Virus record (IMG/VR): IMGVR_UViG_3300030061_002054
Span: 1 to 30,078 of that record
DNA length: 30,078 nt
Strand: one strand, 5' to 3'
From: a virus
In this document: one piece after another, positions 1,081 through 22,731 of the stretch
Layout of the letters: the number at the start of each line of letters is the position of its first letter
Position numbering within the stretch: the stretch's first letter is position 1
Translations under genes and position numbers: made by a program
Notes under the pieces: model-generated
Databases searched by the model: none
Told to the model about the DNA's origin: nothing
What the model saw: the letters and a program-made list of their open reading frames with translations, nothing else

Positions 1081-1914
1081 TCAACTAGTAGGGTTTTCCT
1101 CATTTTTTTTCTCCTCTTGAGGTTGAGGAGGGACAGAGTTTGGTGTTGCTCTGCCCAAGTATGGATCATAGTTCATCCACTCTCTAATGTCAACCGTTGC
1201 TCCAGACTGACTCCAGAAGTTCCAAAGTGCATTGTATGGACCCTGATGAAACACATTGATGTGCTCAGGATGAATAGTTGACTGGAAGTCAAGGTTATAA
1301 AGAAAAATAGGAATAGAATAAGTCTTTCCACTCTCAAGGATTGTATCCTCAGATACTGCTCTTGGCTTTACATTGTTATCCAACTTCCATTTATCACCAC
1401 GCATATGATTGCGGAGAACCTTTCCTGCATGGTGACGAGAGATTAAGTAAGCAGCAGCAGAAAAATCATTTACAAACTTCAAATGCAACTTAACATAGAT
1501 GTCTCCAGTTGTAATTGTAGTCAACTGAATACAATCCCAATCATATGGAACATAGGAAAAGAACTCTTTCCAAGTAAAGTTCCAGAACCTAGCAACCTCA
1601 AGCACTGCATCATCTTCCATGATCAGACAATAATCATCATCAGTCTTCTCATAGAAATGCTTGATTGCTTTGAGGTGTGACATACAACAACCAACTTCTT
1701 GTTGGTTCATCATGTCAGGAAATTTTCCCTTCATGTGAGAAGTGACATCATCATCTCTTCCATCATACCCAGAGATACGGGTATGATTTTCAATCTCCCA
1801 ATAATCAAACTGGTTTTCCATATACTCACGTCTTTTGACATCAGCATCAAGATTTAACCAGTAGATATGGGGGAGTCCTTGTAGTTTAAATGCTGACTTA
1901 TTTTTGTCACGCAT
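1081..1914 (-). CDS. Glycosyltransferase family 25 (LPS glycosyltransferase type)
   Basis: The product has about 277 residues. The N-terminus contains IYWLNLD with a following KRREYM, then GCCMSH at about 75-80 and the acidic EDDA motif at about 100-103, all typical of GT25 enzymes that add a hexose to lipooligosaccharide or protein. The C-terminal 20 residues are a low-complexity Pro/Glu/Lys tail that is probably not catalytic. I place the start at ATG 1914, which overlaps the upstream gene's stop by eight bases. An ATG at 1932 would add six residues. It is the last gene of the cluster, and I see no terminator after it. Donor and acceptor are unknown. Confidence 0.85.
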   Translation of the reverse strand: MRDKNKSAFKLQGLPHIYWLNLDADVKRREYMENQFDYWEIENHTRISGYDGRDDDVTSHMKGKFPDMMNQQEVGCCMSHLKAIKHFYEKTDDDYCLIMEDDAVLEVARFWNFTWKEFFSYVPYDWDCIQLTTITTGDIYVKLHLKFVNDFSAAAYLISRHHAGKVLRNHMRGDKWKLDNNVKPRAVSEDTILESGKTYSIPIFLYNLDFQSTIHPEHINVFHQGPYNALWNFWSQSGATVDIREWMNYDPYLGRATPNSVPPQPQEEKKNEENPTS

Positions 1915-2716
1915 CAATTCTTGTCCAGCCATCGGGAATTAAATCAGAAGTATCGTGGTCTTTAGTGTATCCAGTTCCAAACCACTGGACAGGTGCAATA
2001 ACTTTCTTGTTCTTATTTGTAGAGAGCCATGCTCCCCACCAAGAGTAAGTTGAATTTGCAATAATAAAATCAGAACAAAGACTCATCAAACACAGATCAA
2101 CTCTATTGTCATCATTCTCAGAAACCATAAAACGATCATTGGAGAATAGTTCTTGTTCTTTACACCATGCAGGATCATCTGAGAATACAATCACTTGACT
2201 ATCATCAAAGTGCTTCAGTGCCTTCTCATAATAACTAAGCGGACATGGAGGATGATTAGCACTGTTAGAGATGTAATCTGTGCGACGAACATGAAGTGCG
2301 ATAGGATTATCTACAGTCTTAATCATCTCCTTGCAAGGATTTAAAATCTCATCCTTAAAAGTAAAATCATCACGGATCTCTGCTTTGATATTTCTAAAGT
2401 ATTTCTCTGTTTGAAAATATCCTTGCAGACTTACATTATCAGGACATCGGCAAAACATTTCCTCATCATAGTGAAACTGCCTTTCATGAACAGTGGTTGC
2501 TTGACCACCATCTAATAATCCAACATTTACATTAAGATCAAAAGAGTCAAACAATTCTGTCCGAAGCATGTTACCAATACCATCATTCACTGCGTCTTGA
2601 TGATATGGAATAATAATGTCTGTTCCAATATTTCTTGCTATCCCTTTAAGAGCAGCATACTGGAACATCTGATTACCAAGACGACCCATTCGTCCTAGTG
2701 CATTGAATCCTAGCAT
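1907..2716 (-). CDS. GT11 alpha-1,2-fucosyltransferase-like, copy 1
   Basis: This 269-residue protein shows the GT11 landmarks: GRLGNQMFQYAALKG at 11-25, GYFQTEKYF at 99-107, the donor-binding HVRRTDY at 142-148, FSDD at 178-181 and NSTYSWWGAWL at 221-231. Family members transfer L-fucose, or sometimes L-galactose, from GDP in alpha-1,2 linkage. No membrane segment is seen, so it should be cytosolic. It is clearly paralogous to the product of 3533-4390, with one GT-A gene between them. No GDP-fucose synthase is encoded in the window, but a GDP-mannose 3,5-epimerase is (20642-21754). Confidence 0.9.
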   Translation of the reverse strand: MLGFNALGRMGRLGNQMFQYAALKGIARNIGTDIIIPYHQDAVNDGIGNMLRTELFDSFDLNVNVGLLDGGQATTVHERQFHYDEEMFCRCPDNVSLQGYFQTEKYFRNIKAEIRDDFTFKDEILNPCKEMIKTVDNPIALHVRRTDYISNSANHPPCPLSYYEKALKHFDDSQVIVFSDDPAWCKEQELFSNDRFMVSENDDNRVDLCLMSLCSDFIIANSTYSWWGAWLSTNKNKKVIAPVQWFGTGYTKDHDTSDLIPDGWTRIDA

Positions 2717-2717
2717 T

Positions 2718-3533
2718 TTAATTGTTCTTACGTGTTTTCAGATAGTCCTGATTCTCATAATACTCTTTAAGTTGTTCTTTGTCAAACTCCATTAGAGTAT
2801 CATGAAGGTTTTTATTGTTTTGAATGAAAGGATTTGAGAACCAAGAGTTATCAGTTCTTGTATGCTCCATATGGTATACGTGTGCATCCAATCTACACAC
2901 ATTATATCCTAACTTATGAAACCTGAAAAATCTTTCATCATCTTCATATCCATATGCAACAAATCCTTCGTTTTCTAATCCACCCTCAATATATTTTTGA
3001 GTGGAAAAGAATTGGCAAAATCCATACTTTGCATCATAGACTCTAGATTTCTGTCTAAGAATAGAAAGATCATAGTCTTGATTGATAAACTCAGATACTA
3101 ATTCATCCGTGGCTAAAATTTGGAACTGCCAGTTCCCATCACCATATGGATAGACAACATCACATTCACCGGAAAGAATTTTTTCTTCAGACGTAATGTA
3201 TGACTCTAGTGGTAAAATAATATCACAATCATAATTTACCACTACATCTGTGGTAGTCATCATGACCATATCATTTAACAGTTTTGTACGATGAAAATAA
3301 TTTTCATCACTTTGTTCAAAAATATGTGTCAGTCTGTCTGCTTTCTCACCCACACATTCGCGGATTTGTGGTAAAGCCTTCTCAATAAAAACAGAAGTAT
3401 TATCAGACTCTTTGACAATGATTTTACAATCAGTGTTATCAAGAAGATAGATTGAACTTACAATCACATTTCTAAGTCTGTCATCACTCTCAATCCTAAG
3501 AGGAACTATAAAGGTTGTGTTAGATAATTTCAT
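2718..3533 (-). CDS. GT-A glycosyltransferase, GT2/galactosyltransferase-like
   Basis: This 271-residue product has an N-terminal GT-A pattern: TFIVPLRIES near the start, then the acidic triad DCD at 102-104 for metal and nucleotide binding. It also has a C-terminal block GYEDDERF at 195-202 followed by HMEH at 221-224, which resembles the GT7-type galactosyltransferase C-terminal domain. I chose ATG 3533 because it forms a TAATG junction with the stop of the upstream fucosyltransferase gene. The upstream extension to 3548 begins with TTG. The sugar specificity cannot be read from the sequence. Confidence 0.78.
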   Translation of the reverse strand: MKLSNTTFIVPLRIESDDRLRNVIVSSIYLLDNTDCKIIVKESDNTSVFIEKALPQIRECVGEKADRLTHIFEQSDENYFHRTKLLNDMVMMTTTDVVVNYDCDIILPLESYITSEEKILSGECDVVYPYGDGNWQFQILATDELVSEFINQDYDLSILRQKSRVYDAKYGFCQFFSTQKYIEGGLENEGFVAYGYEDDERFFRFHKLGYNVCRLDAHVYHMEHTRTDNSWFSNPFIQNNKNLHDTLMEFDKEQLKEYYENQDYLKTRKNN

Positions 3534-4390
3534 TACACAATCTTCCAACCCTCAGGAATCAAATCATCCATATGGTAGTGATCATACGATGGACCAAACC
3601 ATTCCTTTGGAGTCACAACAACCTTATCTGGATTATCAATCAACCATGCACCCCACCAAGAGAATGATGAGTTAGCAATAATCGCATCAGTACAGAGAGA
3701 CATCAGACATAGATCTGTCCAGGGCAACCTCTGTCCATCAGAGAACTCTTCAGTGCTCTCCGACATAATGAATCTATCCGATGCAAAGAACTCTTGCTCT
3801 TTACACCACTCAATGTGGTCTGAGAAAACTACTACAGGGATATCATCAGGAAATTCTGCAAGAGCCCTCTCATAGTAATCAAAGGTGCAGACAGGATGCG
3901 TTGTCTCAAGGTTCACATATGCCCATGGCAATTTAGGATCACCACGGCGAATATGTAGAAAGATCTTACGGTCACTCTCAATACTATCAATCATCTCTTT
4001 ACAAGGATTGTAAATAGAATCATGAAATTGAAAGTCCTCACGAAGTTCTTTCTCTACGTTTTTAAAATATCTCTCTGTCTGAAAGTATCCTTCAAGATTA
4101 ACATCATCAGGACACTCATCAAATAATTCCTGGTTGAAATGAAACTCTTTCCAGATAGCCCACTGTCTATCACCAGGGATGCCATGATGCTCCTCTGTAG
4201 CACCGGTCATCTTAAAGGTCTCAAACATACAGTAATTGTTTTCACAACCGTACTCATCAACCCCTGATGTCCCTGGAGGGGGAATAACCCAATCAAACCC
4301 ACGATTAGCAGCAATACCTCTTAGAGAGGCATATTGGAACATCTGATTACCAAGACGACCAGACTTACCAAGTTTATTAAACGATAACAT
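3533..4390 (-). CDS. GT11 alpha-1,2-fucosyltransferase-like, copy 2
   Basis: This 285-residue GT11 protein has GRLGNQMFQYASLRG at 11-25, GYFQTERYF at 101-109, HIRRGDP at 146-152, VVFSD at 187-191 and NSSFSWWGAWL at 240-250. It differs from copy 1 by insertions near residues 45-75 and 152-162, around the likely acceptor side, so it probably acts on another acceptor. Its ATG overlaps the stop of the upstream epimerase by one base (TGATG), suggesting coupled translation. Confidence 0.9.
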   Translation of the reverse strand: MLSFNKLGKSGRLGNQMFQYASLRGIAANRGFDWVIPPPGTSGVDEYGCENNYCMFETFKMTGATEEHHGIPGDRQWAIWKEFHFNQELFDECPDDVNLEGYFQTERYFKNVEKELREDFQFHDSIYNPCKEMIDSIESDRKIFLHIRRGDPKLPWAYVNLETTHPVCTFDYYERALAEFPDDIPVVVFSDHIEWCKEQEFFASDRFIMSESTEEFSDGQRLPWTDLCLMSLCTDAIIANSSFSWWGAWLIDNPDKVVVTPKEWFGPSYDHYHMDDLIPEGWKIV

Positions 4391-5241
4391 CAGACATACT
4401 CCTTCTTCATTTCATTGTACACTTTTCTAATGCCAACATCAATAGTAGTTTTAGGAACCCACCAATTTAAAATATAATTGTCTGCTTCATTTCTCTTATC
4501 CATCTGAACACTATCCTTTGCTAGACCAGGTTTGATCTCAATATCATAATTACCATCAACAGCAAAACATCCTTTAATGATAGAGGCAACTTCTTTGATT
4601 GTTTCTGATCTAAATGATGTGATATGAAGCGGATCTTCTGGTTTGAAGTCAGTATAGTTTTCCATAACCGTCTCTAATGCTTCACAGCAGTCCTCTGCAT
4701 ACAAGAACTGACGTTCTTCAGTGCCATCGGTCATCATCTCAAATTGACCCTCTTCAAATCCCTTACGAATGAAGTCAGTGATCACATGAGCCTTCTCATG
4801 ATCTTTCTCTATACCATAGACATTCCAGAACTTAACAGTCAGTCCTTTAAGTGCAGTAGTATGCAGTTCACCAACACGTTTCATTACACCATAAGGAGAG
4901 TAACTCATGTTACTCATTTGAGATGAAGCAAAGACAAATCTCTTTTTATATTTGCCAAGTAAACGAAAAGTATTTGCCATCATACGAGTATTGTTATTCA
5001 CAAACTCAAATGTATGTTGATACTTCTTCAGGTAACGTGATCCACCCACATCAAAGGCAAGAAAGAATACAAAGTCAGCATACTGAATTGCATTCTCTAC
5101 TACAGTGTTAGGTGTCACTCTCAAATCATATTGAACACCATTTACAATATCAACATTGCTTACATGATGTCCTTTATCTTTTAAGTAGTTTGATAGATAA
5201 GCACCGATCTGGCCAGCAGATCCTAAGATTGTAATGTTCAT
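4390..5241 (-). CDS. NAD-dependent sugar epimerase/dehydratase (extended SDR)
   Basis: This 283-residue extended short-chain dehydrogenase has a Rossmann glycine motif GSAGQIG at 7-13, a serine pair at 106-107 and the catalytic pair Y117 and K121 in YGVMK. Such enzymes act on nucleotide-linked sugars. The glycine motif starts with GSAG rather than GGAG and the protein is shorter than RmlB or GalE, so it may be a C-4 reductase or epimerase of an unusual sugar. It sits directly upstream of the second GT11 gene, and its product could feed that transferase (inference). Confidence 0.8.
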   Translation of the reverse strand: MNITILGSAGQIGAYLSNYLKDKGHHVSNVDIVNGVQYDLRVTPNTVVENAIQYADFVFFLAFDVGGSRYLKKYQHTFEFVNNNTRMMANTFRLLGKYKKRFVFASSQMSNMSYSPYGVMKRVGELHTTALKGLTVKFWNVYGIEKDHEKAHVITDFIRKGFEEGQFEMMTDGTEERQFLYAEDCCEALETVMENYTDFKPEDPLHITSFRSETIKEVASIIKGCFAVDGNYDIEIKPGLAKDSVQMDKRNEADNYILNWWVPKTTIDVGIRKVYNEMKKEYV

Positions 5242-5250
5242 ATACTCAAC

Positions 5251-5997
5251 TCAAATACCGTAAATGTGGTCTTGGCAAAAAACTTTAAAAAGCCAATCGT
5301 GTTTTTGATAATCTAGATTATTAATAATCTTAGCATTATAACCTAAAGAGGTATCAGGTGAAAACATGGGGCACCCTTCTTCAGTGATTCTCTGTAGATT
5401 AGAATAGATTGTACCATATTTATCCATAACATCAGACCCACCCCAGGCAATGATATCAAGAATAGCATAGTCCTTGACTCCTGTTTGAACCCAATCAGGT
5501 CCAGGGTTAATATTGAATGTATGTAGTTTATTTGGATCATACTCTTCAAATGGACCAGGATGTTGCATCCAAAGAAGATCAGATCTCATACGAATAACAT
5601 AGTCATACTTAAAGTTATTCTCTTCTTCATACTGCTTCTTCAGATTCATCACCTGCTCAATACCATAAAACATTGAGATTTGATGGTCTTTTGGATGAGT
5701 TGCTCTCCATTTAGTTTGCCAGGTGTCAGCAAACATGTCTGCAAAGTATCTGGGTTTTTCATAAATTATCTTCTTGGGTTTCCAGTTCTCGTCAATCCAA
5801 TTTTTGACACTAACATCTGGCCAAGTTCCCTGACCAACATCAGTTCTAAACTGAGTTCCAACAAGATCATCATCAAACCATATATGAGCAAAAACATCTA
5901 CATCAGGGAGACCTAAACGAAAGTATTGTTTATGGTTTTCATAACATTCTTGATAACTTCTTGGTCTTCCAGAATAACAAAGTGCAATCTTAGTCAT
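5251..5997 (-). CDS. Putative glycosyltransferase-like protein
   Basis: This 248-residue protein begins IALCYSGRPRSY and contains YDYVIRMRSDL near residues 131-141. That combination resembles glycosyltransferase-like proteins scattered through phage and O-antigen clusters. The RxRxDL segment resembles the metal-binding acidic region of GT-A folds, but I cannot assign a CAZy family. It has no signal peptide or membrane segment. It overlaps the upstream GDPD-like gene by eight bases (ATGACTAA) and is separated from the downstream epimerase gene by nine bases, within one polycistron. The function is inferred mainly from context. Confidence 0.62.
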   Translation of the reverse strand: MTKIALCYSGRPRSYQECYENHKQYFRLGLPDVDVFAHIWFDDDLVGTQFRTDVGQGTWPDVSVKNWIDENWKPKKIIYEKPRYFADMFADTWQTKWRATHPKDHQISMFYGIEQVMNLKKQYEEENNFKYDYVIRMRSDLLWMQHPGPFEEYDPNKLHTFNINPGPDWVQTGVKDYAILDIIAWGGSDVMDKYGTIYSNLQRITEEGCPMFSPDTSLGYNAKIINNLDYQKHDWLFKVFCQDHIYGI

Positions 5998-6442
5998 TTA
6001 GCATATAGGGGTAATCTGTACAAATGCCGTATGGCACCTCATTTTTAATATGAGTTTTAAAACTATCTACTATTTCCCAATCAAGAAGTGGAATAATAGT
6101 TTTGTCATCAAAAGTTTGTTCTACATCATGCAACCAAATTTTTCCATTTGATGTATATGAATATGGATCACCAGTGTGACAGAAAGATTGAAATATTTCA
6201 CAGGTCTTTGCTGCTTCTACATTTTTACAATGCATCCAAAGATTATTCTCTCTCTTAAAGAACCAATTCCAAGTTACTTTATATTGTGGTTCGTCATGAC
6301 CCAGCCAGAACTCACCATTAATATCCCATACATCAATCTCTACATCGTATCCATTACCAAGAGCACAGTCAATGTAACTAGGGGCGTTCTCTCTACCAGG
6401 AACTCGTCCCCGAACATTACCTCTGTGAGATATAATTCTCAT
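5990..6442 (-). CDS. Short GDPD/PI-PLC-like phosphodiesterase-fold protein
   Basis: This 150-residue protein has the hallmarks of glycerophosphodiester phosphodiesterases at its N-terminus: ISHRG at 4-8, ENAPSY at 18-23, the metal ligands E35 and D37 in DVEIDVW, and GHDEP at 48-52. Normal GDPD domains are about 240 residues, so it is a minimal or shortened TIM-barrel version. The conserved catalytic residues suggest it may still hydrolyse a phosphodiester, perhaps a nucleotide- or glycerol-linked sugar intermediate. It overlaps the upstream HAD phosphatase gene by four bases, so the two products may act in succession. Confidence 0.7.
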   Translation of the reverse strand: MRIISHRGNVRGRVPGRENAPSYIDCALGNGYDVEIDVWDINGEFWLGHDEPQYKVTWNWFFKRENNLWMHCKNVEAAKTCEIFQSFCHTGDPYSYTSNGKIWLHDVEQTFDDKTIIPLLDWEIVDSFKTHIKNEVPYGICTDYPYMLND

Positions 6443-6750
6443 ACTTCCTCAATGCGTAATGATTTGTCCTCAATGAAGAGATCATAAAATGGTTTATCAA
6501 CACGGAGCTCATGATACTTACAACCCCAATCAGATAGTTGCTGTGCTGTTAGGTTAGTCCAATCAATTTGTTTTCTACTTCCTCTTGCTGTCCAATACAC
6601 AATTGTATTTCCTTGGTCATACAATTCATTAATCTTATCAATGTTATTTTGAATTGGTTTTGCTTTGGTGTAATCGTGAGTTGTTCCAAAATCTGTAGAT
6701 GATTCCCGATTGCAAATCGTTTCATCAATGTCAACATAAATTACTTTCAT
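6439..6750 (-). CDS. Small HAD-superfamily phosphatase, copy 1
   Basis: This 103-residue protein carries the HAD nucleophile motif DIDETIC (D7 and D9), the second motif TAR at 54-56, a conserved WGCKYHEL segment at about 75-82 and a C-terminal KPFYDLFIEDK containing the lysine and acidic residues of motifs III and IV. Small capless HAD proteins of this type occur in capsule and LPS clusters, where they dephosphorylate sugar phosphates. It is a paralog of the product of 10401-10754. Start and stop overlap both neighbours by four bases. Confidence 0.83.
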   Translation of the reverse strand: MKVIYVDIDETICNRESSTDFGTTHDYTKAKPIQNNIDKINELYDQGNTIVYWTARGSRKQIDWTNLTAQQLSDWGCKYHELRVDKPFYDLFIEDKSLRIEEV

Positions 6751-7421
6751 TGATACATTTTTCTCCTGCGTGCTTCACTGGGACACTTATCAATTTCACT
6801 GACCTGTTCTTCTGTAAGGAAGTTTGTTTGACCAAGAATTTTGGCACCAACAAAAATCTCAGCAGATTTTTCGCACATCATAGTTGATGCAACACATTCT
6901 TTAGCAGATGCAGATGCTACAATTATACCATGATTTTGTAGTAATATCAATTTAGGGAAGTACCCTTCCTCTTCTATAAATGCAAGAACACTTTTCTTCA
7001 TCTCTTCAAGCAAAGGTTTACCTGGCATTGCATAAGGAACAACACAAGACTTTGCGCCATTTCTTACCACTTGATCAGGAAATAATCTATGCTCAGCAAA
7101 TGACCAGATTTGTTCAGAGCATGCCACTTGCATAGTTTTAAGTGGATGAGTATGTGCTATAAATTTAATATCATTAAATTCCCTTAAGATCCATGCATGA
7201 AATCCAGTTTCAATACTTGGTTTTGGTCCAAGTGAATCAAAAGGAACCCCACTCAGTTTGCAAGCAACGAGTTGATCTTTCTCTAAAGTGTCTAAGGAAG
7301 TTCCACTTGCCTTGATATAGAAAAGGGTTTGATACTCATCTTCTGCTTTAGCTGACACATTTCCCTCACCGCAAATTGCGTAAGGTCCAAGTGCATGTGC
7401 TAGTTCTAAGAGATTAACCAT
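6747..7421 (-). CDS. Class II aldolase/adducin-family protein
   Basis: The product is about 224 residues with GEGNVSAK at 18-25, KASGTSLD near 37-44, the zinc-binding HTHP at 90-93 and NHG at 163-165. This is the fuculose/rhamnulose-phosphate aldolase fold. Family members cleave or form sugar phosphates with dihydroxyacetone phosphate, or act as epimerases or decarboxylases. I prefer ATG 7421, which matches the usual short N-terminus and overlaps the upstream gene by only 16 bases. ATG 7463 would add 14 residues. In this cluster it could supply an unusual carbon skeleton for the sugar product. Confidence 0.83.
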   Translation of the reverse strand: MVNLLELAHALGPYAICGEGNVSAKAEDEYQTLFYIKASGTSLDTLEKDQLVACKLSGVPFDSLGPKPSIETGFHAWILREFNDIKFIAHTHPLKTMQVACSEQIWSFAEHRLFPDQVVRNGAKSCVVPYAMPGKPLLEEMKKSVLAFIEEEGYFPKLILLQNHGIIVASASAKECVASTMMCEKSAEIFVGAKILGQTNFLTEEQVSEIDKCPSEARRRKMYQ

Positions 7422-10050: not shown

Positions 10051-10404
10051 TCAGTCTCCTTTCATTATTCTGTAACTGTCCTCATCAAAATGTTGCGTAG
10101 AAAATTCAAATAATTCAGATGGCTCAATAGCAATCATTTGATGTTTGAGTCCACGATAAATGTGAAACTTATCACCAGGTTCAAGTATAACATCCCTTGC
10201 CTCTGCCAGGTCGTCACTATCACCATAGTATAAAAGTATTCTACCAGATTGTAGGTAGAATGTTTCGTCTTTTACTTTATGATAATGCCATGAGCATCTC
10301 TTCCCTTCATTAAAAAATAAGAGTTTACCGCAATACTCTTCAGTATTAACAATCCATTTTTCATATCCCCAACCTTTAGGGACATGTTTTATTTCTGGTG
10401 TCAT
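10051..10404 (-). CDS. Cupin-domain protein, mannose-6-phosphate isomerase type II-like
   Basis: This 117-residue single cupin has HYH at 40-42, E47 and H88, the usual metal-binding set. It also has the GWGYEKWIVN opening and CGKLL-type segment seen in the isomerase half of bifunctional mannose-6-phosphate isomerase/GDP-mannose pyrophosphorylases. As a stand-alone protein beside a nucleotidyltransferase gene it could isomerise or epimerise a phosphorylated sugar. It overlaps the HAD phosphatase gene upstream by four bases and lies one base from the nucleotidyltransferase gene downstream. Confidence 0.8.
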   Translation of the reverse strand: MTPEIKHVPKGWGYEKWIVNTEEYCGKLLFFNEGKRCSWHYHKVKDETFYLQSGRILLYYGDSDDLAEARDVILEPGDKFHIYRGLKHQMIAIEPSELFEFSTQHFDEDSYRIMKGD

Positions 10405-10754
10405 TTCTTATCGCTAAAGAATACATGATCTGGCCATGCTTTATCATCAATGAACATATCTGCGTGTGGTTTACCCATGATTAATTCATGATACTTACAT
10501 CCCCACGTACTCAATTGTTCTTTAGTAAGTGGGTATAGTAATTTATGCGCGATCTCCCGTGCCTCTTCGTAAGGTTTATCACTAGATCTTCCCATCGCTC
10601 TAGCAGTAAAGTAGATGATGTAATTACCTTCATCATACAGATCATTAATTGCAGCAATCCTATCTTTCTTTGGAGTAGCATTTTCATACTGCAGATTCCC
10701 AGATCCTTTACCAGGAGTACAGATAGTTCCATCAATATCAATCACATATCTCAT
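10401..10754 (-). CDS. Small HAD-superfamily phosphatase, copy 2
   Basis: This 117-residue HAD protein begins MRYVIDIDGTIC, giving nucleophile D6 and D8, with TAR near residue 53, WGCKYHEL, and a KPHADMFIDDKA segment for motifs III and IV. I chose ATG 10754 because the nucleophile then falls at the usual position and a GAGAG sequence precedes it. A longer frame to 10787 would overlap the kinase gene more. It lies between a kinase and a cupin gene, where a GmhB-like step (removal of one phosphate from a bisphosphorylated sugar) would be expected in a heptose-type pathway. Confidence 0.82.
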   Translation of the reverse strand: MRYVIDIDGTICTPGKGSGNLQYENATPKKDRIAAINDLYDEGNYIIYFTARAMGRSSDKPYEEAREIAHKLLYPLTKEQLSTWGCKYHELIMGKPHADMFIDDKAWPDHVFFSDKK

Positions 10755-13524: not shown

Positions 13525-13525
13525 G

Positions 13526-15211: not shown

Positions 15212-16479
15212 TTTTCAAAAGAATCAACTACAGTTCCAACATATTCAATCATCTCCTCAGTAATGGTAGGAGAGCATCCAACAAAGAACACTAAGTCAAG
15301 TACCTTACATGCATTTGGATAGTTCTTATAGTAATCAAGATGACTATATCCAGGATGCATCAGAATATTACCAGCAAAGTAGTTACGAGTCTGAACTTTA
15401 TTATCTTCCAGATGCTTAGTTAGTTTAGTTTTTGTTTCCCTACTATCACAAATAATAGGAACGCCAAACCAACTTGTCTCTGCATCGGGATGTTCATCTA
15501 CACTACGAACACCAGGAATTTTTTCAAAGTGTGCTTGCATCAATTTCTTATTCTTACGACGCAATTCATGGATTTCATCTTGCTTTTCAATTTGAACACA
15601 ACCAATAGAACCTTGGAAGTCCATAGGTTTTAGATTGTATCCCATGATACTATAGACATATTTGTGATCAATGATGCCATCATACTTATCAATCCAAGTA
15701 TCAAATCTCTTACCACAAGTGCCGCAAGCAAGTAAATTTTGAGTGCCAACGCAATAACAATCGCGACCCCACCAAGCAAAACTACGTGCAATATTAATAA
15801 GTTCTTCATCATCAGATGAAATCATACCACCCTCACCAGTGCAAATATGATGAGCAGGATAGAAAGAACATGATGCAGCAATAGAATGATTTGTCAGGTA
15901 GTTATTTTTCCACTTACTACCAAGACTATCACAATTATCTGAAATCAATTCAATTTTATATCTATCACAAATGTCAATAATACAATCATAGTCATAAGGA
16001 TTACCAAGAACAGGAGAAGAAAATAGAGCTTTAGTTCTTGTAGTAATCTTATCTTCAATCTCAGTTACATCCCAGTTTAAATCAGAGAAATCAATATCAA
16101 CAAATACTGGTTTCAATCCATTTTGAACAATAGGTGCAATTGTAGTGGGAAATCCTACACAAGATACAATAATCTCATCACCATCTTGCCAACCTAGTCT
16201 CTTCTTCAGTGCTGCAATCATTACAAGATTTGCAGAACTACCTGAGTTGACCATCAAAGAATACTTCTTCCCAAATTTTTTGGAAAACATCCTCTCAAAC
16301 CGATTAACTTCTTCACCAGATGGCAGCCACTTACCATTCAGAAGTCCATTGACAGCTGCTCCCAACTCTTGGTTATCCCAGTAAGGACCGGAATAATAAA
16401 CAGGATTACCTGGTTTCCATTTACTATTTGCAAAATAAGGGGGATTTACATCTTTTAGAAGTGCTTCAATATCAACCAT
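15208..16479 (-). CDS. rfbH: RfbH/E1-like CDP-4-keto-6-deoxyglucose 3-dehydrase
   Basis: This 423-residue protein of the DegT/aminotransferase fold has histidine instead of the PLP lysine: H210 in FYPAHHICTGEGG. That change defines the E1 3-dehydrases, which use PMP to remove the C-3 hydroxyl. C183, C241 and C243 show the C-x57-C-x-C spacing known for the E1 [2Fe-2S] cluster, and C255 in TCGKRF aligns with the fourth ligand after a short insertion. WGRDCYC and DHKYVYS are also typical. GAGG seven bases upstream supports ATG 16479 over 16491. No E3 reductase gene is present, so host ferredoxin may supply electrons. Confidence 0.9.
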   Translation of the reverse strand: MVDIEALLKDVNPPYFANSKWKPGNPVYYSGPYWDNQELGAAVNGLLNGKWLPSGEEVNRFERMFSKKFGKKYSLMVNSGSSANLVMIAALKKRLGWQDGDEIIVSCVGFPTTIAPIVQNGLKPVFVDIDFSDLNWDVTEIEDKITTRTKALFSSPVLGNPYDYDCIIDICDRYKIELISDNCDSLGSKWKNNYLTNHSIAASCSFYPAHHICTGEGGMISSDDEELINIARSFAWWGRDCYCVGTQNLLACGTCGKRFDTWIDKYDGIIDHKYVYSIMGYNLKPMDFQGSIGCVQIEKQDEIHELRRKNKKLMQAHFEKIPGVRSVDEHPDAETSWFGVPIICDSRETKTKLTKHLEDNKVQTRNYFAGNILMHPGYSHLDYYKNYPNACKVLDLVFFVGCSPTITEEMIEYVGTVVDSFEK

Positions 16480-17323
16480 TTTGAACCTCATTTAAGTAAT
16501 CATTAACTTCATTAGACACAACAGAAGACAACCAATTCCTAAATCCACCTGCTTCTCTATTTAATTTTGCAGCTGCATGTCCACCTGCCTGATGCATGAC
16601 CTTAATGCACATTGGTTCCCCTGTTTTAGGATCATCAAGGTACAGTCTATCATCTTTTACATAAATTTGTGACCAACTGTCCCAGTGTGTATTCTGTCCC
16701 CAGGTGCTGCAGAGTCCGTATGATACTCCTGTTCCCATGGCATCAACTACCTTGGTGCTGTACTTATCAGAATTAAAGATTTGATTTAGAGTATCTTGTT
16801 CATCACCAATTCCATGAGCGTATGGATTGACCTCTCTTTTAATTCTAGCAGCTTCAACATTTAGACCATGCCAGTCATACCAAAACTGTTTACTGTTGGC
16901 ACCGATCATACCTGCATTAATAAAGTTTTGAATTGGAATCTGTTCACCATTACCAAAGGGTGGAAGATGAGTAACTGTGATCCCAGGTCCACAACTTGCA
17001 TTATCCAAAGAGTTATTATTACGAACTCCGATGATGTCCTCATCACTTTCAAAAAACTCTGTCATTGGTCCAGTAACAACAGCATCTGCATCTAGATGAA
17101 TGACCATATCATAATCTTCAACAAAAGGAAGACATGTGGTTGACATCATCCAAATAGGTTTCATCCAAGGCAATTGTTCATGAATCTGTTCAGTCATCTT
17201 TGTGTCAAAGATAATGTGATCTACTTCTGGATGAAAATATTTGACCGAATTAATTAATTTATCTAGACCTAGAAGTTCTGCATAATCATCTGTACACCAA
17301 GTTGTTATAGCAATTTTTTTCAT
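16472..17323 (-). CDS. GT8-like GT-A glycosyltransferase
   Basis: This 283-residue protein starts IAITTWCTDDY and carries the nucleotide/metal motif HLDADAVV at about 76-83, NAGMIG at about 136-141 and a late HQAGGH near 247-252 that may complete the metal site. This order (DxD, NAG, H) is that of GT8-type retaining galactosyl- and glucosyltransferases, though overall similarity cannot be measured here. No membrane segment is seen. It overlaps the RfbH-like gene by eight bases and the upstream methyltransferase gene by four. Confidence 0.75.
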   Translation of the reverse strand: MKKIAITTWCTDDYAELLGLDKLINSVKYFHPEVDHIIFDTKMTEQIHEQLPWMKPIWMMSTTCLPFVEDYDMVIHLDADAVVTGPMTEFFESDEDIIGVRNNNSLDNASCGPGITVTHLPPFGNGEQIPIQNFINAGMIGANSKQFWYDWHGLNVEAARIKREVNPYAHGIGDEQDTLNQIFNSDKYSTKVVDAMGTGVSYGLCSTWGQNTHWDSWSQIYVKDDRLYLDDPKTGEPMCIKVMHQAGGHAAAKLNREAGGFRNWLSSVVSNEVNDYLNEVQNG

Positions 17324-17808
17324 TTGTCTCCCATAGCCATAAATGAATTGTTTAAATCAATACCAGATACAAAAATATTTTCATATCCACGTTCAAACAT
17401 GTAAGCCTCAATAATTTTAGGAGTAAGTACATGCTTATGCTTTCTATTATTCCAAGGTCTCCAATAGACCTGACTAAAATCGGGTAGATATAAAAACAAG
17501 GTTCCTTCCTTCTTGAGATTATCATACCAATAATCCATAGTCGCAACCCAATCAGTTACGTGCTCTAGGCAATGACTAGAGAAAATGTAATCTACTTGAA
17601 CTGGTGGTAGATTATCAGCATCCCATGGATCATCAAAGTCAAGATCAATAGGTGTGGCACCAGGAAATGCCCACTCTGGTTTCATACAACCAATATCATA
17701 TCCAACTCCACTACAAACATGTTTTGCAAAAGGAATTGCAAATTGTGATGCATTCCCTTCTGTTTGAAATTTTGGATACCAGTTTTTCTTATATTCTACT
17801 ACTTGCAT
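17320..17808 (-). CDS. Class I SAM-dependent methyltransferase (type 11-like)
   Basis: This 162-residue protein has a degenerate motif I (DIGC at 38-41), an acidic strand-2 region (PIDLDFDDPWD) and the diagnostic SSHCLEHV at 77-84, with a FLYLPD strand near 110. It is short for this family (usually about 200 or more) and lacks a full glycine-rich GxGxG, but motif order is correct. A role in methylating a sugar or sugar nucleotide is inferred from context. Start and stop overlap both neighbours. Confidence 0.77.
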   Translation of the reverse strand: MQVVEYKKNWYPKFQTEGNASQFAIPFAKHVCSGVGYDIGCMKPEWAFPGATPIDLDFDDPWDADNLPPVQVDYIFSSHCLEHVTDWVATMDYWYDNLKKEGTLFLYLPDFSQVYWRPWNNRKHKHVLTPKIIEAYMFERGYENIFVSGIDLNNSFMAMGDK

Positions 17809-18503
17809 ATTAATGTATGTGGGGTACTGAATAGGTAATCAATCTCAGTCATGTTCTTTTCATTATGTGCAACAACCACATAATTTTCATAAGAGGTGTC
17901 TAAGACATCAATAATATAGTTGAGTGATGTATTGATTGTATAAACACTCTTTGCCTTCTCAAAAACTTTACACCAATCGAACAAAGTATATCCGTCAATG
18001 TATTGTAGTTCTACAACCGGTAAGTTGTAATTTTCTGGAAGCATCAGTTCACAATTCCTTCCTTCATTATAAAGGTTGTTGATAAACACGAACTCGGAAT
18101 CATCCTTGAGACCAAGTACATTATAATACAGATCATCTTCTTTAGCAAAGTCACGATCAAATTTAAACCAATCTTTCCAATCAGAATAATCAAGTCCCAA
18201 CATAGAATACTTTGAACTCATAATCTTACCATCATTATGAGTCATATCAGCAGTTGCCATACTGATAAATGCTGCGTTGTCCTCTACAACAGCACCTGCA
18301 CCATGTTCATAGATATCTTTCATTGGGAAGTCATCTGTTGTCATAGGAAACCAAATATCTTTAATGTATTTTTGAATCCATTGGATATCGGGTTTCAGGG
18401 GCCAGACAACATCATACCCCTTCATCATCATTAACCTAGCAATCTTTTGGCAAAAGAAAACATCACCAATTCCTGCAGGTTGTTTAATCAAACAAGGTTT
18501 CAT
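17799..18503 (-). CDS. GT9/heptosyltransferase-like protein
   Basis: This 234-residue protein begins KPCLIKQPAGIGDVFFCQKIA, resembling the first strand and glycine loop of GT9 (ADP-heptose:LPS heptosyltransferase) GT-B folds. The second half contains VYTINTSLNYI, similar to the GT9 donor-side helix where a diphosphate-binding loop normally sits. It is only two thirds of a normal GT9 (about 330 residues), so it may be a reduced or specialised enzyme. Its presence alongside a heptose-type kinase and nucleotidyltransferase is suggestive, not proof. Confidence 0.65.
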   Translation of the reverse strand: MKPCLIKQPAGIGDVFFCQKIARLMMMKGYDVVWPLKPDIQWIQKYIKDIWFPMTTDDFPMKDIYEHGAGAVVEDNAAFISMATADMTHNDGKIMSSKYSMLGLDYSDWKDWFKFDRDFAKEDDLYYNVLGLKDDSEFVFINNLYNEGRNCELMLPENYNLPVVELQYIDGYTLFDWCKVFEKAKSVYTINTSLNYIIDVLDTSYENYVVVAHNEKNMTEIDYLFSTPHTLICK

Positions 18504-19063
18504 ACGTAAGCTACTAATTCATAATCATCAACTCTACCTTTCTCACCTCCCAGATCGACAGGAAAATATTCAATAGTGTAATCATTATTAATTGATAGAA
18601 GTTTTTCTTCAAGTGCTGCCACTTGTCCACTAAAATATACAGGAATATCATCAATGATAATTGTATGATCTTTGATAGAACTATTTTTAATTACATTCAA
18701 TTCATCAAAAGTAGGTACTCCTCCACCTTCAGCATGAGCATCTAACCAAAAACAAGATTTTTTAGTTAGTGTCTTTACCATTTCAGAAAAACAATCATCA
18801 GATTTTCCTAACCAAAGACTAACATTATCATTGTCTTTGAATCTATTCATGCAATGTTGATATCGATCCTGCATCATCTCACAACTAAGGACTTCATCAA
18901 ATTTATGGTCTAAGGCATATTGAACTCCATTACCAAGATAGGTTCCAGTTTCTACAAAATTTTTACAACCTTTACCAACTCCAAAATCTCTCAAAAGAAA
19001 ATAATAAGTTGGGATGCCAGAAGAAATTGATTCCTGGTAATATTTGTCCTTGTCTGTCATCAT
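18500..19063 (-). CDS. SAM methyltransferase-like protein
   Basis: This 187-residue protein has VETGTYLGNGV at 37-47, in place of motif I, VLSCEM at about 58-63, FWLDAHAEGG near 105-114 and IIIDDI near 135-140. This pattern occurs in FkbM/type-24-like methyltransferases that modify hydroxyls of sugars. Two adjacent ATG codons (19063, 19060) could start it. It is flanked by GT10 and GT9-like genes with direct or four-base junctions. The exact acceptor is unknown. Confidence 0.7.
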   Translation of the reverse strand: MMTDKDKYYQESISSGIPTYYFLLRDFGVGKGCKNFVETGTYLGNGVQYALDHKFDEVLSCEMMQDRYQHCMNRFKDNDNVSLWLGKSDDCFSEMVKTLTKKSCFWLDAHAEGGGVPTFDELNVIKNSSIKDHTIIIDDIPVYFSGQVAALEEKLLSINNDYTIEYFPVDLGGEKGRVDDYELVAYV

Positions 19064-19909
19064 TCATTCTCCGTTTAAGTAGTTTTCATAGATGAAGTCT
19101 TCTAATACTTCCATTTCCAATGCTCTTTCAAAGTTGTCTTTGACTGCATCTATTTTATCATAATACATATCCTCAGTCAAAGATTCAATATCAAAACTGT
19201 TCTCAAGGATAATCATACCTTCAGTATTAAACCATTTTCCAACAGAGGGAGTACCATAGTAAATTGGAATAGTTCCAGTTAAAAAACAATCAAGAAGTTT
19301 TTCACTGAAATACTGATCATTATTCTCAATAGCAACTGAGAACATGTAGTCCGCAAGTGCATCTTCTTTGTATTCTATTTCATTAAAACCACGACCAAAC
19401 AAAGGAGCATAATCCTTTAATTGATCTAACATATGCAATCTCTGTTGGTGGCCAGGAAGATGAGATTTGTTTGATGCTAAAATAGAAATCAATTTATCCT
19501 TTGGATAAATTTGAGGATCACGAATCCAAGATCCGTTACCAGGAATCCAACAAATTCTATCATGAAGGTTGCATAGTTCTTCACTCCAAGTAAAAATCTT
19601 ATCATAAGCATTCATATACTTATCAAGATTACTTTTGATATCATCAATGAGTGGTTGAACTAACCAACAACACTCCAAAATAATTCCATATTTCTTTTTA
19701 CTTACAGTGTCTTGTAGTCCTGGTGAGATATATCCATCAACATAAAATGTTTCATCATCAGATATAAGGTTATTGAAAGTAAGTTTCTGTTTACCCTCAC
19801 CTTCATGAATCCACTTGATATACTTCGACTCTTTACCGTGAGTTGAATATCCTTTATTACCATTGGTAAGATGAATAAAGGTATTGTTCAGTAGTTTAAA
19901 ATTTTTCAT
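19064..19909 (-). CDS. GT10 alpha-1,3/4-fucosyltransferase-like
   Basis: The 281 residues contain the GT10 donor-binding signature: FSVAIEN at 190-196, then FSEKLLDCFLTGTIPIYYG at 201-219, equivalent to the FAFEN...DYxTEKL...G-PVYxG block of bacterial and animal alpha-1,3-fucosyltransferases. The C-terminus lacks the heptad repeats of Helicobacter enzymes. The donor in this family is GDP-L-fucose. With a GDP-mannose 3,5-epimerase gene two positions upstream, GDP-L-galactose is a possible alternative donor. ATG 19909 overlaps the FkbM stop by four bases. Confidence 0.86.
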   Translation of the reverse strand: MKNFKLLNNTFIHLTNGNKGYSTHGKESKYIKWIHEGEGKQKLTFNNLISDDETFYVDGYISPGLQDTVSKKKYGIILECCWLVQPLIDDIKSNLDKYMNAYDKIFTWSEELCNLHDRICWIPGNGSWIRDPQIYPKDKLISILASNKSHLPGHQQRLHMLDQLKDYAPLFGRGFNEIEYKEDALADYMFSVAIENNDQYFSEKLLDCFLTGTIPIYYGTPSVGKWFNTEGMIILENSFDIESLTEDMYYDKIDAVKDNFERALEMEVLEDFIYENYLNGE

Positions 19910-20640
19910 TTCAACAAATACTTTTCTTTGTTAAATGGTTTCAGTTCTCTATCGTTTCTCACAAAAACAGAGTCTCCCCACTGCTCATAACCATAAGAAT
20001 CAGACATCTCATTAAGAGTAAAGTTTCTTTTATCTAACCACTCCACAATAACATCATGAGATGCACCGGTATTGTTTCTATCATCAAGTGAAGTTTCTAG
20101 AAAAATAGTATTGATATATTTAAGATTATCCTCAAAACCTTTCAAGACTTCAAGTTCAGCACCTTCAACATCAATATTCAAAAAATCATACTGATTCATA
20201 TCAATATTATTTTCGTCAATCAATGTAGACAATTTCTTAGTTGTAACATCAACATAATTGCCTTTAGAAAGTTTTGCTGACAGGTGAGCAGAATATGCAA
20301 CTGGATTTAATGTCGAACAGTCGTTTGCAAGATAGAATTTTTTCTTTAATCCATCCTCACTATAAAGACATTCATTAAAACAAAGATATCCACACTCATC
20401 TGCAACTGGTTTTGACATGGTGTCATAAACAAACTTATTTGCCTCTACACCAATAACCTTAGTCCCAGCAAGTTTAGTATAACAATCATGCTCAGGGAAG
20501 TTCCAAAGGCCAACATGAATGATTCCTTTGACATCAACGTTTAATCTTTCAAAGATGCCAGTATATTCTGCAGTTGGATGATCCCATGTGGCATATCCAG
20601 TCTCCTTATCATAAGAAGCATATGGTCCTAATTTACTCAT
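19906..20640 (-). CDS. FkbM-family methyltransferase
   Basis: This 244-residue protein has HVGLW at 42-46 in the motif I position, GVEAN near 64-68 as the SAM ribose-binding acid, and the FkbM hallmark LNIDVEGAELEVLKG at 154-168. FkbM enzymes O-methylate sugars or polyketides with SAM. I set the start at ATG 20640, one base after the stop of the GDP-mannose epimerase gene. A longer open frame to 20751 runs back into that gene and is unlikely to be translated. It probably methylates the glycan product. Confidence 0.86.
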   Translation of the reverse strand: MSKLGPYASYDKETGYATWDHPTAEYTGIFERLNVDVKGIIHVGLWNFPEHDCYTKLAGTKVIGVEANKFVYDTMSKPVADECGYLCFNECLYSEDGLKKKFYLANDCSTLNPVAYSAHLSAKLSKGNYVDVTTKKLSTLIDENNIDMNQYDFLNIDVEGAELEVLKGFEDNLKYINTIFLETSLDDRNNTGASHDVIVEWLDKRNFTLNEMSDSYGYEQWGDSVFVRNDRELKPFNKEKYLLK

Positions 20641-20641
20641 A

Positions 20642-21754
20642 TTAAACGGGGTGATAAAAAGGAACGTAGTTGTCAGATTTAATCTGAGAACTAATCCAAG
20701 AATAAGTTTTGCGAATACCCTCTTCAAGGGTCTGAGAATAATCCCATCCAAGTTCTCTACGGATTACATCATTATTAGAGTTGCGACCACGAACCCCAAG
20801 AGGTCCATCAATATGAATCTTGGAGACTTCTTTGCCAGCAACCTTAGCGGCAGTATCTACAAGTTGGTTAATAGTAACCATCTCTTCAGAACCAATATTC
20901 ACTGGTCCCATGAAGTCACTATCCATCATTCTTCTAGTTGCTTCAATACATTCATCAATGAACAAGAAGGAACGAGTTTGTAACCCATCTCCCCACACCT
21001 CGATTGCTCCACCTTGCTCCGGGAGGAAAGCGACTTTACGGCAGATTGCAGCTGGTGCTTTCTCTCTTCCACCGTCCCAGGTTCCTTCAGGACCGAAGAT
21101 GTTATGATACCTAGCAACCCGAACAGGGATGCCATGATTACGATTGTAAGCAAAGTAGAGACGCTCACTGAAGAGTTTCTCCCATCCATACTCGGAGTCT
21201 GGTTCTGCTGGGTACGCATCATTTTCCCTCAGTCCAGGATTGTTTGTTTCTTCTTGAGCATACTCAGGATACATGCACGCTGATCCAGAGTAGAAAATTT
21301 TAGTAGGTTGCTCTAAGGAAGGACGAACACATGCAGTTCCGTTCTCTTCACCATCAAAGGTTTCATTCAGTTTACGAACTTCCTCAAGAACATTTAAATT
21401 AATTGATACGGAGTTGTGCATGATGTCTGCATCGTTCTCACCTGTGAATACAAAACCTGCTCCACCCATATCAGCAGCAAACTGATAGATCTCATCAAAA
21501 GGACGGATACAGCGATAAGGAACAGAGTTATAAAAATTACCTTGTTCACCTTTGAATTGGATGACACGACGCACGAAAGTTACATCACGCAAGTCACCTT
21601 GCACAAATTCATTTGCTTCTGTGTTAGAGAACTCAGGCAGCTTAAGGTCAACCCCACGCACCCAGTATCCTTCAGAGCGGAGACGTTTGACCATATGCGA
21701 TCCAATAAATCCACCCGCACCAAGCACAAGTGCGGTCTTATTATAGTCAGACAT
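20642..21754 (-). CDS. GDP-mannose 3,5-epimerase (GME-like)
   Basis: This 370-residue extended SDR has the glycine motif GAGGFIG at 12-18, AADMGGAGFV at 93-102, SGSACMYPE at 156-164, the catalytic YGWEK at 189-193 and RYHNIFGPEGTWDGGREKAP shortly after. These are the signature blocks of GDP-D-mannose 3',5'-epimerase, known from plants and some bacteria, which makes GDP-L-galactose and GDP-L-gulose. Insertions at about 65-85 and 133-150 distinguish it from the plant enzyme. It has its own consensus promoter (21781-21809). Confidence 0.88.
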   Translation of the reverse strand: MSDYNKTALVLGAGGFIGSHMVKRLRSEGYWVRGVDLKLPEFSNTEANEFVQGDLRDVTFVRRVIQFKGEQGNFYNSVPYRCIRPFDEIYQFAADMGGAGFVFTGENDADIMHNSVSINLNVLEEVRKLNETFDGEENGTACVRPSLEQPTKIFYSGSACMYPEYAQEETNNPGLRENDAYPAEPDSEYGWEKLFSERLYFAYNRNHGIPVRVARYHNIFGPEGTWDGGREKAPAAICRKVAFLPEQGGAIEVWGDGLQTRSFLFIDECIEATRRMMDSDFMGPVNIGSEEMVTINQLVDTAAKVAGKEVSKIHIDGPLGVRGRNSNNDVIRRELGWDYSQTLEEGIRKTYSWISSQIKSDNYVPFYHPV

Positions 21755-21780
21755 AAAATATTAATGTTGTCATAGTATGT

Positions 21781-21809
21781 ATTATACCTCTCAAAAGGCG
21801 ATTAGTCAA
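21781..21809 (-). promoter_or_regulatory. Sigma70 promoter for the GME-led operon
   Basis: On the minus strand TTGACT (21809-21804) and TATAAT (21786-21781) are spaced 17 bases apart. Transcription would start near 21774, about 20 bases before ATG 21754. The -35 overlaps the stop of the rmlB-like gene and lies in an inverted repeat (GTCAAG 21805-21810 and CTTGAC 21817-21822). It gives the glycan genes an entry point independent of rmlB. Confidence 0.82.
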
Positions 21810-22731
21810 GATACCACTTGACAGTCTCGGCTAAACCTCTATTAAATTCTACACCTGGAAACCACCCGGTTTTTTCTGTGAGTTTAGAAAAATCTGTTCC
21901 ATACCTTTGATCCTGTCCTGGTCTCTCATCAGATTGTCCTATTAGAGAGTGTGGTTTATCAAGAATGTCTAAGATTTTCTTTGTTATATCCATATTTGTG
22001 ACCTCACATGCACCACCAATATTAAACTTATCGTTGATTACTTTCTTTTCTTCCAAAGACCAAATTGCAGTGCAGTGATCAAGTACATGAATCCAGTCCC
22101 TAACTTGATGACCTCCACCATACATGTTAGTGACAGTATCATTCATTCCGTTTAGGATAATTTTTGGAATCAGTTTCTCAGGGTGTTGGCGAGGTCCGTA
22201 GTTGTTAGAAGAACTAGTAATAATATACGGTAGATCATAAGTGTTATTCCATGTCTTTACCATGTGCTCCGCAGATGCCTTTGTAGCAGAATATGGGTTA
22301 CGTGGATCATATGGTGTATTTTCGTTGAAAAGAGAACCATCAAAATCTAAAGATCCATATACCTCATCTGTGGATACATGATGAAATTTTTCAACACCAA
22401 CAGAAACACTAGATGAAAGAAGATTCGTTGTTCCAATAATATTTGTTTTGATGAAAGGAGTCACGTCTCTGATAGAGTTGTCAACATGACTCTCTGCAGC
22501 AAAGTTAAACACCTTTGTTGGTTTTACTTTCTCAAAAATATAATCTACGTGCTCTTTATCAGAAATATCACACCAGATAAATTCTACACCATCTGGTATG
22601 TTAGTTTCCTTACCAGCATATGTGATATTATCTAAAACAATAATCCTATCGTCGGTGACATTTTTTAAAAAGTATAGAAAGTTGCTGCCAATAAATCCAG
22701 CACCTCCAGTCACTAAAATTGTATTAAACAT
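21802..22731 (-). CDS. rmlB: dTDP-glucose 4,6-dehydratase (RmlB-like)
   Basis: This 309-residue protein is RmlB-like: GGAGFIG at 9-15, FAAESHVDNSI at 77-87, STDEVYG at 120-126 with the catalytic T-D-E triad, YSATK at 147-151, and SNNYGPRQHPEKLIP further on. It produces 4-keto-6-deoxy sugar nucleotides, the precursor class needed by the RfbH-like and ThDP enzymes downstream. It is about 40 residues shorter than typical RmlB. The nucleotide (dTDP or CDP) cannot be fixed from motifs, although similarity favours dTDP. It is the first gene of the cluster, with its own promoter at 22751-22779. Confidence 0.9.
   Translation of the reverse strand: MFNTILVTGGAGFIGSNFLYFLKNVTDDRIIVLDNITYAGKETNIPDGVEFIWCDISDKEHVDYIFEKVKPTKVFNFAAESHVDNSIRDVTPFIKTNIIGTTNLLSSSVSVGVEKFHHVSTDEVYGSLDFDGSLFNENTPYDPRNPYSATKASAEHMVKTWNNTYDLPYIITSSSNNYGPRQHPEKLIPKIILNGMNDTVTNMYGGGHQVRDWIHVLDHCTAIWSLEEKKVINDKFNIGGACEVTNMDITKKILDILDKPHSLIGQSDERPGQDQRYGTDFSKLTEKTGWFPGVEFNRGLAETVKWYLD

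Follow-up and report, generated by a model that had tools for sequence, protein, structure and literature searches.

Large clusters of lipopolysaccharide (LPS) genes in T4-like cyanophages were described in 2010 by Sullivan and colleagues, who, in the accessible part of their report, leave open whether such clusters are functional or stuffer DNA (PMC3037559). For branched sugars, the closest described system is the pathway to yersiniose and erwiniose, in which YerE attaches an acetyl group to CDP-3,6-dideoxy-4-keto-glucose, the donors preferred by ErwE are 4-hydroxy-2-oxo acids, pyruvate not being used, and JanthE is YerE-like (PMC12247030, in excerpt); the structure 8rph is named as JanthE, with the physiological substrates given as unknown (PMC12188165, in excerpt). 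Ketopantoate hydroxymethyltransferase (PanB), in turn, belongs to vitamin B5 synthesis, and in one ocean study pantoate transferase was the most abundant of the pantothenate-related viral genes and was read as support of coenzyme A (CoA) (PMC8940887, in excerpt). Here we analyse bases 1–30078 (‘the window’, 30,078 nucleotides) of the 50,584-base IMG/VR virus record IMGVR_UViG_3300030061_002054, in which a gene of the PanB family lies within a 27-gene sugar cassette. While a large sugar cassette as such is of an already known kind, the PanB-containing sub-module at 11823–16491 is new. We put at roughly 55% the probability that this sub-module makes a C4-branched 3,6-dideoxyhexose, that the viral PanB is a glycan gene and not a vitamin B5 gene, and that assembly of the glycan is cytosolic.

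Module-type PanB and its partner genes

The genes of the sub-module, in cassette order from the rmlB end, are:

15208..16491, minus strand: E1/RfbH-type 3-dehydratase (PDB 3bcx, 253 bits; His in place of the pyridoxal phosphate (PLP) Lys; four FeS-type cysteines kept)
13526..15211, minus strand: YerE/JanthE-like thiamine-diphosphate (ThDP) carboligase (PDB 8rph, JanthE, 386 bits)
12658..13524, minus strand: PanB (ketopantoate hydroxymethyltransferase family), module-type clade (TIGR00222, 279 against a cut-off of 207.55)
11823..12668, minus strand: short-chain dehydrogenase/reductase (SDR), proposed branched-sugar reductase in the role of YerF (PF01370)

The window PanB passes the equivalog cut-off of its family, and six catalytic residues, which we take to be those of Escherichia coli PanB, are kept in all 69 distinct viral PanB rows, the window included. 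At ten other positions the viral rows have almost uniformly adopted a different residue, and two residues that would follow the metal-binding Glu motif are missing from the window protein (one such position was checked and is gapped in 69/69 rows). Only 13 of 50,697 phage records match the window PanB, all at less than 60% identity and none from a marine cyanophage. In IMG/VR, a PanB relative is encoded by 99 of 138 candidate stretches, and the best 80 of these, at 72–99% identity, were kept as viral PanB loci. The T4-type capsid gene gp23 is present in five of 50 tested PanB records, spanning two ThDP subclasses, and synteny with cyanophage S-SM2 links the subclass of the window to T4-like phages; for the remaining PanB contigs, viral origin is taken from IMG/VR.

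The ThDP gene lies within 300 nt of PanB and on the same strand in 79 of the 80 viral loci, the sole exception being L006, where PanB is 332 nt from the contig end and a ThDP tblastn match is still present. Some SDR is found within 7 kb of PanB in 78 loci, and a gene of the PLP-dependent DegT family in 67. The catalytic Lys is replaced by His in all 67 of these PLP partners, and all four E1 cysteines are kept in 54; the window partner has the His and the four cysteines. Among cell-genome DegT homologues (the 19 that aligned of 30, from five genomes) the His occurs in three, of which two are clustered with a module PanB. The PHROG family of the PLP partner bears the name aminotransferase, an assignment we reject on the His site.

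The best PDB match of the window ThDP enzyme is JanthE, with 386 bits as compared to 231 for the best acetolactate synthase. JanthE is likewise the top match for all four PanB-linked ThDP enzymes tested (window, viral L030 and L071, cellular L089) and for five of five overall, including one from a NeuB-type locus. A plain acetolactate synthase, which the listed NCBIfam matches (below cut-off) would suggest, was set aside, since JanthE scores far higher.

Module-type PanB proteins also form a lineage of their own. In a first tree the 69 viral rows (the window included; L083, with an unusable PanB copy, and identical copies were dropped) and two cell rows fall into one clade with an SH-like approximate likelihood ratio (SH-aLRT) of 100, and in a second tree, which took in 24 of the 69 viral rows, all ThDP-paired PanB rows fall into one wider clade (ultrafast bootstrap 97 / SH-aLRT 96). 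The module clade stands apart from the host copies in the trees, several host branches being long. Of the 300 genomes of the family of Prochlorococcus G001, the host family, 278 have a PanB match, and just two have the module type (G001 at 74% and G112 at 62% identity; next best 43%); the ThDP match adjoins module-type PanB in both. A second PanB is present in four of the five cell genomes carrying a module PanB. The copy in the Pelagibacter metagenome-assembled genome MED605 (L086) was not accepted as evidence for a cellular module: where the two align, its PanB does not differ from that of viral L049, so its contig may be viral.

A second view was gained by searching with the ThDP enzymes, which yielded 82 loci: PanB is adjacent in 54, a NeuB-family gene accompanies the ThDP gene in 16 (15 adjacent, one a gene away), neither is present in eight and four end at a contig edge. 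With both searches pooled and duplicates removed, there are 83 PanB loci, 14 NeuB loci, eight with neither and four at a contig edge, and in no pooled locus do PanB and NeuB both lie beside the ThDP gene. Each of the four NeuB-type genes tested scores above the cut-off of PF03102. In the PanB-less module of L263 a 3-dehydroquinate-synthase-like gene (5140–6249) adjoins NeuB; in L280, L282, L303 and L304 the YerE-like ThDP frame is split into at least two open reading frames (ORFs), with no PanB or NeuB beside it.

A proposed branched-sugar pathway

Substrates, products, order of steps and location of the glycan are all deduced here from gene content, linkage and active-site residues. RmlB would provide a 4-keto-6-deoxy sugar nucleotide, from which the E1-type PLP enzyme would remove the 3-hydroxyl. 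PanB would transfer a hydroxymethyl group from methylene-tetrahydrofolate onto ketoisovalerate, or onto pyruvate/2-oxobutanoate, as the alpha-keto acid, and so form a 4-hydroxy-2-oxo acid; this acid would be decarboxylated by the YerE-like ThDP enzyme, which would add the acyl group to the C4 ketone, and the SDR would reduce the new ketone of the branched sugar. For the cassette as a whole, several activated sugars would be made and then joined by seven or eight cytosolic glycosyltransferases.

PanB chemistry is a one-carbon transfer to a keto acid and that of NeuB joins phosphoenolpyruvate to an aldehyde, and each yields a 4-hydroxy-2-oxo acid. It is mainly because PanB and NeuB would thus both deliver the donor class preferred by ErwE that we place PanB before the carboligase. 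The likeness to the yersiniose and erwiniose pathway lies in the presence of a YerE-like carboligase, an E1-type 3-dehydratase, a 4,6-dehydratase and an SDR in one cluster; the window differs in having PanB in the donor position, in the E3 reductase not having been found and in the dTDP type of its 4,6-dehydratase. The words ketopantoate and pantoate do not occur in the review of that pathway. A wider proposal, which we advance tentatively and consider more probably wrong than right, is that a PanB subfamily left vitamin B5 synthesis to become a donor-maker interchangeable with a NeuB-family synthase, with two unrelated enzymes of C–C bond formation supplying YerE-like carboligases with one and the same donor class, and that undescribed sugars coat the virions of T4-like marine phages.

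If the viral PanB is indeed a glycan gene, its reading as CoA support changes, and the label ‘pantothenate’ in a metagenome would mark a branched-sugar pathway. Moreover, since PanB and NeuB exchange beside a single carboligase family, specific donors can be predicted for enzymes such as JanthE (PMC12188165, in excerpt).

Several observations weigh against the proposed pathway. Most viral PanB records are fragments, and 13 of the 80 viral PanB loci lack DegT at a distance of up to 7 kb from PanB; in four of these (L030, L031, L057 and L059) a DegT match lies 8–10 kb away, and in the remaining nine there is none in the fetched stretch, several having incomplete flanks and L078 full ones. Cellular L085 has a module PanB but only a Lys-type DegT and no ThDP match, and the PanB of L088 falls inside the clade with no ThDP match nearby. 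The RfbH match of the window, at 374 bits, is below the cut-off of 423 (passed by the L071 and L052 relatives), and both HldE-like proteins are below theirs. An E3-type reductase for E1 was not found: Fer2 matches occur in four of 23 records, none of them the window record, and all four are stand-alone ferredoxins of ~100 residues; a host enzyme could serve instead. Known E1 acts on CDP-sugars, whereas RmlB here is of the dTDP type, which is the best match of the 4,6-dehydratase in the window and two viral relatives, cellular L089 leaning towards CDP. Both PanB and NeuB are missing from eight of the 82 ThDP loci, four of these eight having a split ThDP frame, and seven PanB loci (L032, L034, L039, L045, L049, L050 and L058) also hold a NeuB gene 5–9 kb from the ThDP gene, and therefore the two exclude each other only in the slot beside the ThDP gene. 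Finally, in an L030-type subclass a gene of ~510–520 codons lies beside the PanB or ThDP gene (L029 8431–9999, L030 8446–9999, L296 2108–3652); the L029 and L296 examples are B12/radical-SAM proteins, which suggests a further methylated branch. As a separate observation, L032 has a PseF-like cytidylyltransferase near its NeuB, perhaps part of a sialic-acid-like pathway in the same cassettes.

The cassette and its transcription signals

The cassette comprises 27 minus-strand ORFs at 1081–22731, as described in the original prediction, which was made from the DNA letters; the stretch is 99.7% coding, with intergenic gaps of −110 to +47 nt. The PanB/YerE-like/E1 module went unmentioned in that prediction. 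The tRNA genes come after the cassette in the window; in the record beyond it nrdA, gp61, gp41, uvsX, gp43 and gp44 are collinear with S-SM2 (best pieces at 64–91% identity), and the record is therefore, again as predicted, that of a T4-like cyanophage, and one near S-SM2. That the cassette is one of glycan biosynthesis is borne out by Pfam and NCBIfam matches to nucleotide-sugar and glycan genes, rmlB among them. In order from the rmlB end, the genes before the sub-module are:

21802..22731, minus strand: RmlB, dTDP-glucose 4,6-dehydratase, first cassette gene (NCBIfam TIGR01181, 369.6 bits against a cut-off of 365.1)
20642..21754, minus strand: GDP-mannose-3,5-epimerase (GME)-like SDR (Pfam Epimerase, 3.2e-33; S-SM2 86%, Bellamy 81%; the GME name comes from the original prediction)
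19906..20751, minus strand: FkbM methyltransferase (PF05050, 1.3e-13; the listed TTG start is probably too far upstream)
19064..19909, minus strand: GT10 fucosyltransferase-like (PF00852, 26.4 bits against a cut-off of 23.9)
18500..19063, minus strand: 187-residue protein with no Pfam or PHROG match (relatives in 10 viral loci)
17799..18503, minus strand: probable GT-B glycosyltransferase, weakly GT9/heptosyltransferase-like (AlphaFold2 pLDDT 87.4)
17320..17808, minus strand: S-adenosylmethionine (SAM) methyltransferase (PF13489, 6.8e-11)
16472..17323, minus strand: GT-A glycosyltransferase, GT8/GT6-like (AlphaFold2 pLDDT 88.5; Foldseek WbbM, glycogenin, LgtC, alpha-1,3-GalT)

and those after it:

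11453..11872, minus strand: HldE-like adenylyltransferase domain (TIGR02199, 122 bits, below cut-off)
10738..11496, minus strand: HldE-like heptose kinase domain (TIGR02198, 136 bits, below cut-off)
10401..10787, minus strand: small HAD phosphatase-like (TIGR01689, 24 bits, far below cut-off)
10051..10404, minus strand: cupin (PF07883)
8484..10049, minus strand: sugar nucleotidyltransferase domain, N-terminal (PF12804/PF00483 over cut-off, residues 4–187; a second domain is probable from reading the sequence)
7406..8515, minus strand: GT61 (PF04577)
6747..7463, minus strand: class II aldolase (PF00596)
6439..6750, minus strand: small HAD phosphatase-like (PF25109 below cut-off; phrog_1238)
5990..6442, minus strand: protein without Pfam match (phrog_34507, unknown function; a GDPD-like look by sequence reading only)
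5251..5997, minus strand: possible glycosyltransferase (PF25072 below cut-off; phrog_13607, unknown function)
4390..5241, minus strand: SDR epimerase (PF01370)
3533..4390, minus strand: GT11 (PF01531)
2718..3548, minus strand: GT7-like (PF02709, just over cut-off)
1907..2716, minus strand: GT11 (PF01531)
1081..1932, minus strand: GT25 (PF01755)

At least seven glycosyltransferase types had been proposed, and seven are reached: five Pfam families across six proteins (GT25, GT11 twice, GT7C, GT61 and GT10) and two types by fold alone, as judged by AlphaFold2 and Foldseek, in the 16472 gene (GT-A, GT8/GT6-like, with DxD residues invariant in an alignment of 17) and the 17799 gene (weak GT-B/GT9). 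For the 17799 model Foldseek returned 3tov, a GT9 (E 1.5e-4), then WaaC (9.6e-3) and TibC (1.0e-2). Of three methyltransferase-like proteins proposed, those at 17320 and 19906 are supported by Pfam, and the one at 18500 is left without Pfam or PHROG match.

The claim that the cassette goes beyond the few LPS genes usual in cyanophages does not hold, as S-SM2 carries a 26-gene LPS cluster (SSM2_191–216) at the same location, flanked by a DUF680-type gene and the tRNA block; the sugar cluster of Bellamy shares the tRNA-side flank. In the comparison with other cyanophages that had been proposed, tblastn matches to the window’s 27 genes were found for 19 in the S-SM2 stretch and 12 in the fetched Bellamy stretch, but the PanB/ThDP/E1 module has no match in either stretch. 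The genes matched in neither are the SDRs at 4390 and 11823, PanB, ThDP, E1, the 16472 and 17320 genes and FkbM, and the RmlB match is weak in S-SM2 (31%) and Bellamy (29%), probably reflecting another SDR. In approximately the slot of PanB, ThDP and E1, S-SM2 encodes a Zn-alcohol dehydrogenase next to a protein of the transketolase-central-region type (S-SM2 stretch L001, 18954–21176), which may together form a further sugar-branching module that relies on thiamine.

Upstream of the first two genes lie two candidate promoters:

22751..22787, minus strand: terminator-like hairpin with a TTGACA box, then TATCAT 17 nt on; probable promoter before the cassette (covariation in relatives)
21781..21809, minus strand: sigma-70-like site TTGACT-17-TATAAT upstream of the GME-like gene (consensus match only)

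Both sigma-70-like sites (22779–22751 and 21809–21781) match the consensus at 11 of 12 positions, in agreement with the promoters proposed before rmlB and GME, and the first is conserved in relatives; the number of promoter-like sites in the scanned stretch, however, is at chance level (82, against 77.1 ± 8.6 expected). The hairpin recurs before the GME-like gene in six viral relatives (L005, L008, L010, L011, L013 and L023), with a variant in S-SM2 before SSM2_191, and an alignment of eight sequences shows 11 pairs, three of which have changed on both sides. A conserved promoter for the cassette is supported because the same element, with compensatory stem changes, is found in relatives. In L004 the promoter boxes stand without a hairpin, and Bellamy has a look-alike that was kept outside the alignment. 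The cassette is probably read into one or two transcripts, as far as such signals tell. The hairpin itself resembles an intrinsic terminator, with the −35 box inside it and the −10 box after the T-run; the stems covary, and the −35 box and TATNAT stay.

Destination of the glycan and alternative readings

Transmembrane hydrophobicity is not reached by any 19-residue stretch in 26 of the 27 cassette proteins, and the sole exception, the N-terminus of the FkbM protein, lies upstream of the likelier start, which leaves no predicted membrane protein in the cassette. Flippase (PF01943, Wzx), initiating transferase (PF02397, Bac_transf) and polymerase/ligase (PF04932, Wzy_C) families are found in none of 29 related records, namely the complete S-SM2 and Bellamy genomes and 27 viral contigs, mostly fragments, the window record not being among them. 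The cassette is thus not a self-sufficient bacterial Wzx/Wzy O-antigen island, and the likeness to such an island seen in the original prediction fails on export and assembly. Assembly of the glycan would take place in the cytosol, with either a virion protein or lipid-linked carriers of the host as acceptor; since the search for export machinery found none, we favour the virion protein. Mimiviruses and chloroviruses glycosylate their virions with virus-encoded cytosolic enzymes and glycosyltransferases, without export genes; the cassette is alike in having cytosolic enzymes without export genes, and a putative virion glycan would be its counterpart in the cyanophage. The GT9-like 17799 gene, together with the split HldE-like pair (10738–11872), hints at heptose transfer, and TibC, a structural match of the 17799 model, is presumably a protein heptosyltransferase. 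A literature search on cyanophages with virion glycosylation gave no match, most subscription journals being outside its scope.

The alternative that survives best is that the cassette remodels the host O-antigen, for superinfection exclusion or defence, through the flippase, polymerase and ligase of the host, rather than glycosylating virions. This is possible, although we give it clearly less than an even chance. In its favour, the cassette has the kinds of gene known from LPS clusters, and module-type PanB with an adjacent ThDP match is found in two host-family genomes; however, no export or initiating family was found in the 29 related records, and the LPS of two marine Synechococcus strains contains no heptose and no 3-deoxy-D-manno-octulosonic acid (PMC4515613, in excerpt), while the cassette holds heptose-type genes. 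Since heptose is lacking from the LPS of these two strains, we also set aside the heptose pathway as a mimic of the LPS core.

Concerning the order of steps, PanB might act after the carboligase, hydroxymethylating the acetyl branch (an alpha-hydroxy ketone able to bind metal) that the YerE-like enzyme sets on the sugar. The same linkage data fit, and the module-only substitutions beside active-site residues as well as the short loss after the metal-binding Glu motif would suit a changed substrate. We nevertheless consider this order unlikely, as the replacement of PanB by NeuB fits donor synthesis better: known NeuB relatives make free keto acids.

Much less probable still is that the viral PanB is a vitamin auxiliary gene boosting host pantothenate and CoA, as proposed for oxygen-minimum-zone viruses. 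The viral protein shares family, length and catalytic residues with the PanB of vitamin B5 synthesis and passes its equivalog model, and the viral pantoate transferase was read in this way in the available part of PMC8940887. Against this stand its separate clade with near-fixed substitutions of its own, its linkage to glycan genes, with the carboligase alongside in 79/80 loci, and the PanB already present in 278/300 host-family genomes. Furthermore, PanC was found in nine of 14 control genomes but in 0/50 viral records (mostly fragments), as compared to PanB, the control, in 50/50. In the open literature, panB with cyanophage or viral auxiliary metabolic gene matched only PMC8940887, most subscription journals again lying outside the search; 3-methyl-2-oxobutanoate hydroxymethyltransferase with phage gave, among the matches listed and by title or abstract start, none on viral panB; and ketopantoate hydroxymethyltransferase with O-antigen gave nothing relevant, by which absence from print is not shown.

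The ratio of non-synonymous to synonymous substitution rates (dN/dS; Nei–Gojobori, two nearest usable relatives per gene, some dS near saturation) is 0.03–0.24 in 27/27 cassette genes, and by this sequence-based measure all 27 are under purifying selection. That the cassette is functionless stuffer DNA for headful packaging, a possibility named in the accessible part of PMC3037559, is rejected on these ratios, unless the estimates are badly biased by the near-saturated dS values, and is at odds with 27 intact frames across 21.6 kb. The selection test thereby speaks to the question raised in 2010 of whether such clusters are functional or stuffer, and the lowest ratio of all is that of PanB.

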